A stretch of 64,000 bases of DNA from the NCBI RefSeq assembly GCF_024227435.1, contig NZ_CP100445.1, positions 3,717,369 to 3,781,368 on the forward strand, read 5' to 3'. A program made the position numbers and the translations under genes. This DNA comes from Natrinema caseinilyticum. Its GTDB lineage: Archaea; Halobacteriota; Halobacteria; Halobacteriales; Natrialbaceae. Under the pieces are notes generated by a model. That model had not been told where the DNA came from. It saw nothing but the letters and a program-made list of their open reading frames with translations, and made no database searches. Below are positions 16,412 through 20,006 of the stretch, one piece after another (positions within the stretch are counted from its first letter, which is position 1; every line of letters starts with the position of its first letter).

Positions 16412-17341
16412 ATGGCGATACAACGACGACGGTTCGTTGCGGCTGTGGGAACGAGTGCGATTGCCGGTCTCGCCGGCTGTTTGAGCTTTTCGGGCAACGG
16501 CGACGACGAGGGGGCATCGGTCACCGGTGAGACGCTCACGTTGACGACCACGACGAGTACGTACGACACGGGGCTGCTGGGCGAACTCAACGTGCCGTTC
16601 CAGGACATGTACGGCGTGACGGTCGACTCGGTGGCACAGGGCACGGGGGCAGCCCTCGAGACCGCGCGAAACGGCGACTCGGACGTAGTGATGGTTCACG
16701 CGCGGTCGCTGGAGGACGAATTCATGCGCCAGGGATACGGCGTAAACCGTCGGGACCTCATGTTCAACGACTTCGTCATCGTCGGTCCGGCGGACGATCC
16801 GGCCGGTATCGAGGGCATGGATTCGGCGGCCGAGGCGTTCACGACGATCGCGGACTCGGAAGCAGCCTTCATCTCTCGAGGGGACAACTCCGGGACGCAC
16901 ACCAAGGAACTCATCATCTGGGAGCAAGCGGGCGTCGACCCGGGTGGCGACTGGTATCAGGAAACCGGGCAAGGAATGGGAGAGGTGCTGAACATCGCCA
17001 ATCAACAGAGCGGATACACCCTCTCGGATCGGGGGACGTACCTCTCGCAGCGATCGAAGATCGATCTCACGATCCTCGTCCAGGGGCCGATCGAGGGCGG
17101 GCCGGAACTCCTCGCCAATCCGTACGGGATCATCGCGGTCAACCCCGCGGTCCACGACAACGTCAACTACGACCTGGCGATGGCTTACATCGGGTACATC
17201 ACGAGCCCGCAGGCCCAGGACTTGATCGAGAACTACGAAGCGAACGGGGAGCAGTTGTTCTTCCCCCGCGCCCTCTCCGAGGAACCGGATTTCCAGCAGT
17301 ACGTTCCGGAAGGCTGGAGTGCGAATACGACCGATAGCTAA
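16412..17341 (+). CDS. tupA: Tungstate ABC transporter, substrate-binding lipoprotein
   Basis: 309 residues. The N-terminus [20 protein letters not shown] with LAGC at the lipobox marks a Tat-exported lipoprotein held at the outer face of the membrane. The mature part starts with the TupA-type oxyanion motif [17 protein letters not shown] and continues with [28 protein letters not shown] and [13 protein letters not shown], all typical of tungstate-binding TupA rather than ModA. It is first in a three-gene operon with permease and ATPase. It captures tungstate for tungsten cofactor enzymes such as aldehyde:ferredoxin oxidoreductases. Confidence 0.92.
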
Positions 17342-17343
17342 CC

Positions 17344-18063
17344 GTGTCCCTCGGTACGTTCACACCCGTCCTGACGCCGTTTCTCGTCGATTTCCCCTTC
17401 GATGCGGTGTACGTACGGAGCATTATCGCGGTCTCGCTGTACGTCAGCGTGATCGCCGTCCTCCTGAGCGCTAGCGTGAGCCTCCCGATTGCCCTCCTGA
17501 TGGGATTTACCAGCTTTCCCGGAAAGCGATTGCTCACCTCCGTCATCAACACCGGAATGGGATTTCCGAGCGTCGTCGTCGGGTTACTGGTCCTGTTCGT
17601 CGTCTCGAATCAGGGCCCCCTCGGCGAGTTCGAACTCGTATTCACGAAACGAGCGATGATCATGTCGCAGTTCGTCCTCGCGACGCCGCCGATAACGGCC
17701 ATCAGCCTCGCGGCCATCTCGGGCGTCGATCAGAACGTCCGTGACGCCGCCCACGCGCTCGGCGGGACCCGCATCGATGTCGCACTCGTGACGATCAAGG
17801 AGGCACGGTACGGAATCGCGACGGCTGTCCTCGCCGGATTCGGGCGCGCGATCAGCGAAGTCGGGTCCGTTCTCATCGTCGGCGGAAACATCGCCGGCGC
17901 GGAGGGCGTTTCGAAAACCCGGACGCTGACGACCGCCATCTCGCTCGAGGCCAGGCAGGGCCGATACGAGACGGCGATGGTCCTCGGCGGGATTCTGGTC
18001 GTCCTCGTCTTGCTCGTCAACGCCGTGGTCGTTCGACTCGGCGACAAGGGGGTGCAGCGGTAA
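17344..18063 (+). CDS. tupB: Tungstate ABC transporter, permease
   Basis: 239 residues with five to six membrane segments, starting at the GTG two bases after the tupA stop. The coupling-helix region [20 protein letters not shown], followed by [20 protein letters not shown], matches the EAA-loop motif of TupB/WtpB-type permeases. The dimer would form the pore that accepts tungstate from TupA. It overlaps tupC by one base (TAATG), so the three genes are translated as a tight operon. Confidence 0.92.
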
Positions 18064-18839
18064 TGGGCCTGGACGTTCTCAAAGCGACCGATGTGTCGCT
18101 CTCGTACGATCACGAACGGGTGTTGGGAGGTCTCTCGCTCTCGGTCGAACCCGGCGAGGTCGTCGCCGTTATCGGCCCGTCGGGCGTCGGAAAGACGACG
18201 TTGCTCAGGATCCTCGCGCTGTCGCTCAGACCGGACGAGGGGACCGTCGAATTCGACGGCAGGGACGCCTGGTCCGTCGACGACGCCGAGCGCCTGTCGA
18301 TGCGCCGGCGAATCGGGATGGTATTTCAGGACGCGAGCCTGTTCGACGCATCAGTCGAACGGAACGTCGAGTACGGGCTCCGAGTCCGACGATCCTGGTC
18401 CGCCCGGCTTCGCGACGAACTACGGTCTCTCGTTCGTTCGAACGGGACGGCCGACGCCGTTCGGGAGTCGCTCGAGGTCGTCGGATTGACGGACAAACTC
18501 GACCAGCGAACGTCCTCGCTGTCCGGCGGGGAAGCCCAGCGCGTGTCGTTTGCTCGAGCCCTGGCCTACGAACCGGACGTGCTCCTTCTCGACGAGCCCA
18601 CGTCCGATCTCGACCCGCGGAACACGGCGGTCATCGAGGACGCGATCGCCGAGGCACGGACGCAGGGAATCGGGATCGTCGTCGCGACCCACGATATGCA
18701 CCAGGCCGAGCGCGTTGCGGATCGGGTCGCGGTGTTACTCGACCACCGTCTCACCGAATTCGGCCCGACGGAGCGGATCTTCCAGAACCCGTCCGACGAT
18801 CGCACTCGAAAGTTCATCTCGGGCGAGCTGGTCTACTGA
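18063..18839 (+). CDS. tupC: Tungstate ABC transporter, ATP-binding protein
   Basis: 258 residues with the complete ABC ATPase set: Walker A GPSGVGKTT, Q-loop GMVFQDASLF, signature LSGGEAQRVSFARAL, Walker B VLLLDEPTSDLD and the H-loop ATHDMHQAERVADRV. There is no C-terminal TOBE domain, as is usual for TupC. It energises TupB. The start overlaps the tupB stop by one base. Downstream there are about 260 bases without a gene before a 48-residue protein. Confidence 0.92.
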   Translation: MGLDVLKATDVSLSYDHERVLGGLSLSVEPGEVVAVIGPSGVGKTTLLRILALSLRPDEGTVEFDGRDAWSVDDAERLSMRRRIGMVFQDASLFDASVERNVEYGLRVRRSWSARLRDELRSLVRSNGTADAVRESLEVVGLTDKLDQRTSSLSGGEAQRVSFARALAYEPDVLLLDEPTSDLDPRNTAVIEDAIAEARTQGIGIVVATHDMHQAERVADRVAVLLDHRLTEFGPTERIFQNPSDDRTRKFISGELVY

Positions 18840-19100: not shown

Positions 19101-19247
19101 ATGCGTGACGAAGACGAAATTCGAGAGCAGTACGAATTCCTCAAAGAGAACCTCGAAAGTGACGAAATGCGTCACGACGGCGTCGAACAGATGTTCACGT
19201 ACTATAAACGAGCGCTGGGTTGGGTGCTCGAGGAAGAACACATCTGA
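19101..19247 (+). CDS. 48-residue conserved-looking acidic protein
   Basis: MRDEDEIREQYEFLKENLES, followed by MRHDGVEQMFTYYKRALGWV and LEEEHI: a mostly helical, acidic peptide with no membrane segment. Codon use is typical of the genome. A T-rich box (CTTTTTTGCC, about 19067-19076) fits a start of transcription near 19097, right at the ATG. I recognise the style of haloarchaeal small conserved proteins but cannot assign a function. It lies about 110 bp upstream of the structured RNA candidate, on the same strand. Confidence 0.6.
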   Translation: MRDEDEIREQYEFLKENLESDEMRHDGVEQMFTYYKRALGWVLEEEHI

Positions 19248-19356
19248 TCGGACCGGTAACGACCCTCCCGGACCGGTAGACCGGCGTGCAGGACTCGTAC
19301 CGCCGCTGTGCTATCTCTTGTCGTTACCTTTAAGTCCTCGCAGCAGAATCTACCAC

Positions 19357-19450
19357 GTGACGCTTCGCTTGGAGGGCCGAAGCGTCAGCGGGGACCAATT
19401 CAGGGCGGCAAGCAATCGCGTGGCATTTTCCGTCACGCGATTTGCTTTCC
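19357..19450 (+). ncRNA. Candidate structured small RNA with two hairpins
   Basis: A TATA-like TTTAAG (19329-19334) predicts transcription from about 19357. Exactly there begins a perfect 10-bp stem, TGACGCTTCG at 19358-19367 with CGAAGCGTCA at 19378-19387, closing a 10-base loop. After 22 bases a second stem follows: AAGCAATCGCGTG at 19410-19422 pairs with CACGCGATTTGCTT at 19434-19447, 13 pairs with one bulged base, closing an 11-base loop. No open reading frame of convincing composition covers the region. The arrangement looks like a small RNA gene rather than a terminator of the 48-residue gene, whose stop is 110 bp upstream. It has no family that I recognise. Confidence 0.5.
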
Positions 19451-19690
19451 TGTTTCGACACTATTCATCCAACAGTAACGACTGGTTCAGACGGTATCGA
19501 TTACAGTCACGGCCGTTCCACGGGCAGTCAATGTAATTGTACCGAAACAAAAACCACGCACTGTAAACATGAACCACTCATTATGTGAGAATCGGCGCTC
19601 AATCCGTCATCGATGTTATGGGTCCTTCGAACTCGAAATGAGTCGTCTCGATGGTAATACCCCTGTTTCGATCGAAACAACCCGATAGCC

Positions 19691-19725
19691 TTATTAAAAT
19701 TCGACAGTAAGTACGCTTGGTACTT
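19691..19725 (+). promoter_or_regulatory. Promoter and operator-like palindrome of the PadR gene
   Basis: TTATTAAAAT (19691-19700) is a good haloarchaeal TATA box. Immediately downstream, spanning the predicted start of transcription (about 19722), AAGTAC (19709-19714) and GTACTT (19720-19725) form a perfect 6-5-6 palindrome. A dimeric winged-helix protein such as the PadR protein encoded next could bind here and block its own promoter. Confidence 0.55.
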
Positions 19726-19730
19726 TCCCA

Positions 19731-20006
19731 ATGTACGACCTGACAGGATTCCAGCGTGACTTGCTCTACGTCATCGCTGGCGAGGAGGAACCTCACGGAC
19801 TGGCGATCAAAGAGGAACTCGAACAGTACTACGAAAAGGAGATCCATCACGGCCGTCTCTACCCCAACCTCGATACCCTCGTCGACAAGGGACTCGTCGA
19901 GAAAGGCCGTCGGGATCGACGAACGAACTTCTACACGCTCACCCGCCGTGGCCGCCGTGAACTCGAGGCGCGCCGGGAATGGGAGGCGCAGTACGTCGAC
20001 CTGTAA
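19731..20006 (+). CDS. PadR-family transcriptional regulator
   Basis: 91 residues, essentially only the PadR winged-helix domain. Visible blocks are LTGFQRDLLYVIAGEEEPHG, LAIKEELEQYYEKEIHHGRL, YPNLDTLVDKGLVEKGRRDR and NFYTLTRRGRRELEARREWE. The YP-L--L---GL signature of PadR is present. Such proteins bind DNA as dimers, and in haloarchaea many short PadR proteins regulate themselves. A palindrome at its own predicted transcription start supports that here. Direct target genes cannot be told from the window. Confidence 0.88.
   Translation: MYDLTGFQRDLLYVIAGEEEPHGLAIKEELEQYYEKEIHHGRLYPNLDTLVDKGLVEKGRRDRRTNFYTLTRRGRRELEARREWEAQYVDL

Follow-up and report, generated by a model that had tools for sequence, protein, structure and literature searches.

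A near-universal haloarchaeal small RNA with a putative hairpin guide and predicted tandem target sites in 3′UTRs

Trans-acting sRNAs of haloarchaea such as sRNA132 are stand-alone, intergenic genes with a promoter of their own, and an action on mRNAs has been proposed for them; the RNA described here is predicted to be of the same kind. Most of the sRNAs tested in Haloferax volcanii, sRNA132 included, have no homologues elsewhere (PMC3956466). The sRNA hts10 (HVO_2213s) of the same organism is located between HVO_2213 and HVO_2214 (Heyer 2012; PMC3956466, Tables 1 and 5). It was detected by sequencing, is conserved in 18 other haloarchaea and has a mild deletion phenotype, with neither mechanism nor targets given (PMC3956466). 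In H. volcanii, 72% of the detected protein-coding transcription start sites (TSSs) are leaderless, and 3′UTR-based mechanisms might, as the authors suggested, prevail where sRNAs act on leaderless mRNAs (PMC4983044).

The locus lies in a 64,000-nt stretch of the Natrinema caseinilyticum genome (hereafter the window). On comparative evidence, it is a genuine sRNA gene and near-universal in haloarchaea.

The RNA gene and its hairpins

The features are, in window coordinates:

19101–19247, plus strand: 48-aa ORF (codons at 19101–19244), not part of the sRNA; syntenic, upstream of the sRNA in examined relatives with the copy found here (copy A)
19320–19334, plus strand: promoter with BRE-like GTCGTTA and TATA box TTTAAG (19329–19334), conserved in relatives
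19358–19455, plus strand: sRNA gene of ~98 nt (covariance model; conservation from 19358 on); predicted TSS 19357–19359, predicted 3′ end ~19450–19456
19358–19387, plus strand: hairpin 1, 10/10 pairs, loop CTTGGAGGGC
19358–19367, plus strand: 5′ arm of hairpin 1, TGACGCTTCG, the strand covering guide block 2 (fold and conservation)
19370–19376, plus strand: guide block 1, loop segment UGGAGGG (sRNA nt 13–19), invariant in the distinct 5′ domains
19378–19387, plus strand: 3′ arm of hairpin 1, CGAAGCGTCA (fold and conservation)
19381–19396, plus strand: guide block 2, AGCGUCAGCGGGGACC (sRNA nt 24–39), spanning the last part of the 3′ arm and the adjoining linker, near-invariant
19397–19409, plus strand: linker AATTCAGGGCGGC, conserved in most families, variable in divergent paralogues
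19410–19447, plus strand: hairpin 2, terminator-like with one bulge (covariation); U-rich loop ATTTTCC at 19425–19431
19446–19455, plus strand: pyrimidine-rich 3′ end TTTCCTGTTT, a conserved stretch and presumed termination site
19731–20006, plus strand: PadR-family regulator (Pfam PF03551, E 4e-18), a neighbour outside the sRNA with a conserved promoter of its own

A covariance model detected the element in 383 of 392 Halobacteriales genomes (343 of the 345 good ones); it was absent only from three small families of the order, and essentially no copies were found elsewhere in the phylum. A match outside the order (G514, E 0.002) was discarded as a chance-like hairpin only. In a DNA search the element was present in 56 of 61 relatives, and it was also present in 77 of 80 named loci that had been fetched solely through the neighbouring 48-aa ORF. 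The closest named relative for the locus is Natrinema gelatinilyticum, with 98% identity over the element. For the 5′ 42 nt only 30 versions exist among 196 copies; two of these (93 and 55 copies) differ by a single loop U. Rfam covariance models, including those of archaeal C/D and H/ACA guide RNAs and of riboswitches, gave nothing at the gathering score or at E ≤ 5, and a literature search for the core sequence returned no match.

A small RNA gene had been proposed here in an earlier note, with a TATA-like TTTAAG and a start at about 19357. The motif is indeed present at 19329–19334, upstream of stem 1; its distance fits a start at 19357–19359, and conservation begins at the first base of the stem. 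BRE and TATA box are kept at a fixed distance across relatives: in 163 distinct upstream regions the TATA box occupies −29 to −24, CG at −36/−35 is conserved in 91%, A at −32 in 98% and the TTTA positions (−29 to −26) in 81–99%, with TTTA or TTAA correctly placed in 94%. At the other end, the element extends to ~19455, beyond the 19450 proposed earlier; of 164 distinct copies, 86% close with a run of pyrimidines resembling CTTTCC.

The folding energy of the 122-nt region is −52.5 kcal/mol, compared with −37.2 ± 3.6 when dinucleotides are shuffled (z −4.27), and one shuffle in 200 folded as well. The perfect 10-bp stem and the singly bulged second stem of the earlier note were both recovered, the first as 19358–19367 paired with 19378–19387 and the second within ~19410–19447, with one bulged U; the linker AATTCAGGGCGGC pairs with the base of hairpin 2. 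The covariation that the note had asked for in both stems, and whose absence would have refuted it, is strong in stem 2, whereas stem 1 is almost invariant. Across 30 distinct 5′ domains 96.9% of the pair cells of stem 1 are kept, and both partners of a single pair are substituted, in two divergent paralogues. Stem 2 differs in sequence almost everywhere while its pairing is kept: computed on a length-homogeneous subset of copies (21 relatives), 100% of pair cells are kept and 6 pairs are changed on both sides, a covariation score reached by none of 500 shuffles. Hairpin 2 has a mean z of −4.9 over 138 distinct 3′ parts, with strong folding in 97%.

Antisense sites in the 3′UTRs of two gene families

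Weak secondary matches of the DNA search clustered on one part of the sRNA, and reading them revealed reverse complements of the sRNA after stop codons. The loop UGGAGGG and the 3′-arm/linker segment CGUCAGCGGGGAC are complementary to one to five tandem copies of CCCCGCUGACGC-n-CCCUCCAC at these positions. The bipartite antisense pattern CCCGCTGACGN{2,12}CCTCCA had 98 matches in 61 genomes, 58 of them the sRNA genes and 40 elsewhere; the 40 compare with 4 for the reversed pattern. About four of the 40 lie inside genes, and almost all of the remainder come after a stop codon. As a site, the perfect 12-nt complement ATTGGTCCCCGC was tried and rejected, as it retrieved almost only the sRNA genes themselves; it misses the sites because these stop before AAU.

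The matches outside the sRNA genes are dominated by two unrelated gene families. Family 1 is a small membrane protein ending in SVSALGVPGA; family 2 is a secreted protein with a Tat signal, beta-helix-like by eye and without a Pfam match. Orthologues of both were fetched by protein similarity with the motif unused, and sites were present in 30/30 of family 2 and 24/27 of family 1; of these orthologues 25 and 13, respectively, had at least two copies. Background 3′UTR-like windows contained the motif in 2/187, 4/177 and 8/153 cases (1–5%), the 5% being partly due to windows that overlap sRNA genes. Per UTR, the two families contain 2.2 and 1.7 core motifs compared with ~0.03 in dinucleotide shuffles; the 2.2 sites per UTR stand against 0.027 in shuffles (~80-fold) and 0.03 on the opposite strand. 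The five commonest 8-mers of both UTR sets, ranked without reference to the sRNA, are antisense to it.

When the sRNA was scanned in 7-nt steps, complementarity peaked only at nt 13–19 (loop) and ~nt 24–38 (3′ arm and linker), and these two peaks coincide with its evolutionarily frozen segments. CCCTCCA, the complement of block 1, is found in 26 of the 57 target 3′UTRs (2.4 expected) and the 7-mer complements of block 2 in up to 54 of the 57 (1–6 expected). The site logo reads CCCCGCTGACGC, ~4 nt, CCCTCCAC; ~37% of the sites have no clear CCTCC block. Predicted duplexes clearly exceed those of shuffled and reversed controls in strength (−43.6 compared with −31.8 kcal/mol), and the net cofolding energy is −21.0 compared with −10.7 for shuffled sites. 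The complementary sites are hence conserved and occur beyond chance, as for a base-pairing sRNA. Some lie further from the stop codon than the 40 nt of an average haloarchaeal 3′UTR (PMC3956466).

At one locus (L372, G039:C1:622600-624000) the stop codon is itself part of the motif: the upstream gene ends with the TGA of GCTGACG. At another (L373, G040:C1:1040400-1041900) a longer degenerate array follows the stop, with CCGCTGACGC and then CACTAACGCCTTCGTTCGACT repeats, which suggests that site arrays may grow by tandem duplication.

In N. caseinilyticum a strong site lies 32 nt past the stop codon of the family 2 gene (G000:C1:945808-946590), and the family 1 gene has a degenerate one. No further 3′UTR site was found in the 464 kb of this genome that were examined, so its targets are probably few. 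The two large families are known from Natrialbaceae only, and the guide is invariant order-wide; outside Natrialbaceae the candidates are a handful of single genes, including secreted LolA-like and alpha/beta-hydrolase-like proteins, and 400 kb of a Haloferax-like genome contained no target sites. A membrane and export theme among the targets is suggestive only. As for ribosomal RNA, pairing with 16S was no better than shuffles and no long shared complement was found in 23S; the Shine-Dalgarno-like GGAGG of the loop was considered as the main reading and dropped.

Proposed mechanism and alternative explanations

We propose that the 5′ hairpin holds both guide blocks, UGGAGGG in the loop and CGUCAGCGGGGAC in the 3′ arm and linker, with part of block 2 sequestered by the 5′ arm. 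Targets would present CCCCGCUGACGC-n(about 4)-CCCUCCAC just past the stop codon, often in 2–5 tandem copies, and would enter at the free linker and the loop. The UGACGC of the target is part of the sRNA 5′ arm and could therefore replace that arm in the stem, mimicking and displacing it; such a need for replacement would explain the sequence invariance of stem 1. A bipartite duplex of ~11–13 plus 7–8 bp would then form in the 3′UTR, hairpin 2 would end and stabilise the RNA, and the outcome might be decay of the mRNA or control of its translation through the 3′UTR, perhaps with Lsm. A stand-alone, haloarchaea-wide, trans-acting sRNA of ~98 nt that pairs with repeated 3′UTR sites is our main reading, with a probability of about 0.8. 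Transcription in N. caseinilyticum, the actual pairing and its regulatory outcome are what we infer from sequence comparison.

The several tandem copies per UTR would also suit sponges, which would titrate the sRNA instead of being regulated by it, the 5′ hairpin then serving mainly in protein binding or housekeeping; an order-wide invariant 5′ domain, despite the small number of targets in some genomes, fits this explanation as well. We consider it unlikely: the sites follow the same two genes in ~30 genomes with differing copy number and spacing, as would fit selection acting on these two genes, whereas sponges need not stay put. It is quite improbable that the UTR motif acts at the level of DNA or protein, e.g. 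as a 3′-end-forming signal, and is complementary to the sRNA by chance. The sites are C-rich and near stop codons, where 3′-end signals lie, but the motif is missing from the 3′ ends of other genes, and the motif is complementary only to those two blocks of one sRNA that are accessible and most conserved, in an order suited to one duplex.

The genomic context bears on a further explanation. As the earlier note had described, the sRNA lies between a 48-residue gene and a PadR regulator, and the usual gene order is 48-aa ORF, sRNA, PadR and an MgtC-like gene. The 48-aa ORF, without a Pfam or NCBIfam match, is 70–98% identical across haloarchaea and adjoins the sRNA in most genomes. With about 85–100% identity over most of the order, the PadR protein is unusually conserved, and among Natrinema-related loci the element CCGATAGCCTTATTAAAATTCGACAGTAAGT upstream of its gene and the start context TGGTACTTTCCCAATG hardly vary (window 19671–20006), which suggests that PadR may be a key, perhaps autoregulated, regulator. 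Further upstream, an operon for a tungstate-type (TupA-like) ABC transporter (window 16412–18839) is found here only in the closest relatives. Because a terminator-like hairpin follows a conserved domain and PadR lies downstream at most loci, the element could be taken for a cis-acting leader (riboswitch or attenuator) of PadR in which hairpin 2 is a terminator switch. This is very improbable since the distance to PadR varies about five-fold (about 190 to 1060 nt), PadR is missing at some loci and otherwise has its own conserved upstream element (TTATTAAAA), and the divergent second copies read in several genera of Haloferacaceae have neither the 48-aa ORF nor PadR nearby. With its own promoter and terminator, and separable from its neighbours, the sRNA appears to be an independent transcription unit. 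Near-negligible, lastly, is a short leaderless mRNA (GTG at 19357) for a micropeptide, since indels of +1 and +2 nt in the hairpin 1 loop shift the frame between otherwise invariant flanks, so that no peptide is conserved, even though an NTG occupies −1 to +2 in most copies and one frame is open.

The second copy of Haloferacaceae and known systems

Most Haloferacaceae genomes contain two copies of the sRNA, and some contain 3–4, with divergent extras (L226-L229, L230, L240); one of these (L230) is a remnant, hairpin 1 without the linker guide, beside a tRNA-like sequence. In one genus (g67, loci L175/L177) the second copy, copy B, is flanked by a DUF5813-like gene and a chemotaxis transducer gene, four genes after an orphan E1-alpha gene, and adjoins the gene of a 78-aa protein. 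This gene order matches that of H. volcanii from HVO_2209 (E1-alpha, oadhA4) through HVO_2212 (78 aa), as it should at the hts10 locus, and the genus would be Haloferax or close to it. Judged from synteny and gene numbering, copy B of Haloferacaceae is very probably hts10, which occupies chromosome 2078656-2078816 of H. volcanii and is listed at 161 nt (PMC3956466) compared with the ~100-nt unit found here. HVO_2908s is unlikely to be copy A, as the expected COG0565 gene (HVO_2906) was not recognised among the ORFs there. H225.2R (HVO_1727s2, 96 nt) was rejected as the H. volcanii counterpart because its listed place seems to fit the neighbourhood of neither copy; HVO_1727 is a TBP gene.

The small RNA gene of the earlier note is thus backed by its near-universal distribution, promoter, stem 2 covariation, non-coding nature and paralogues without the neighbours. 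That it was undescribed stands as far as Rfam is concerned but not for the Haloferacaceae paralogue, very probably hts10, which sequencing had already revealed (PMC3956466). The novel part is the likely target system, hts10 itself having been seen by sequencing, and hts10 gains a concrete mechanism hypothesis with named target genes. We regard the RNA as a new sRNA family and putative base-pairing regulator of unusual architecture, combining an invariant hairpin guide with repeated 3′UTR sites.

Unlike sRNA132, the sRNA occurs almost throughout the order and comes with tandem 3′UTR sites, and its distribution runs counter to the reported poor conservation of haloarchaeal sRNAs (PMC3956466). 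The sites suggest that it may control a few mRNAs via their 3′ ends in a microRNA-like manner. With some reservation, we favour a wider reading as a microRNA-like archaeal system, in which a near-universal Halobacteriales sRNA with an invariant bipartite guide would act on tandem 3′UTR arrays, several of them on mRNAs of exported or membrane proteins, and so regulate leaderless mRNAs that have no 5′UTR. Most mRNAs of haloarchaea are leaderless, which raises the question of how sRNAs act on them, and conserved tandem 3′UTR sites make this question directly testable.

Bacterial toehold-type sRNAs carry short seeds in loop and linker, and eukaryotic microRNAs often have multiple sites within one 3′UTR. 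The sRNA resembles the former in its putative loop and linker seeds and the latter in its several sites per 3′UTR, a likeness in the way of working between unrelated systems. For the archaeal sRNA we know of no Hfq or Argonaute partner. Unlike in toehold-type sRNAs and microRNAs, its guide overlaps the 3′ arm of its own hairpin.
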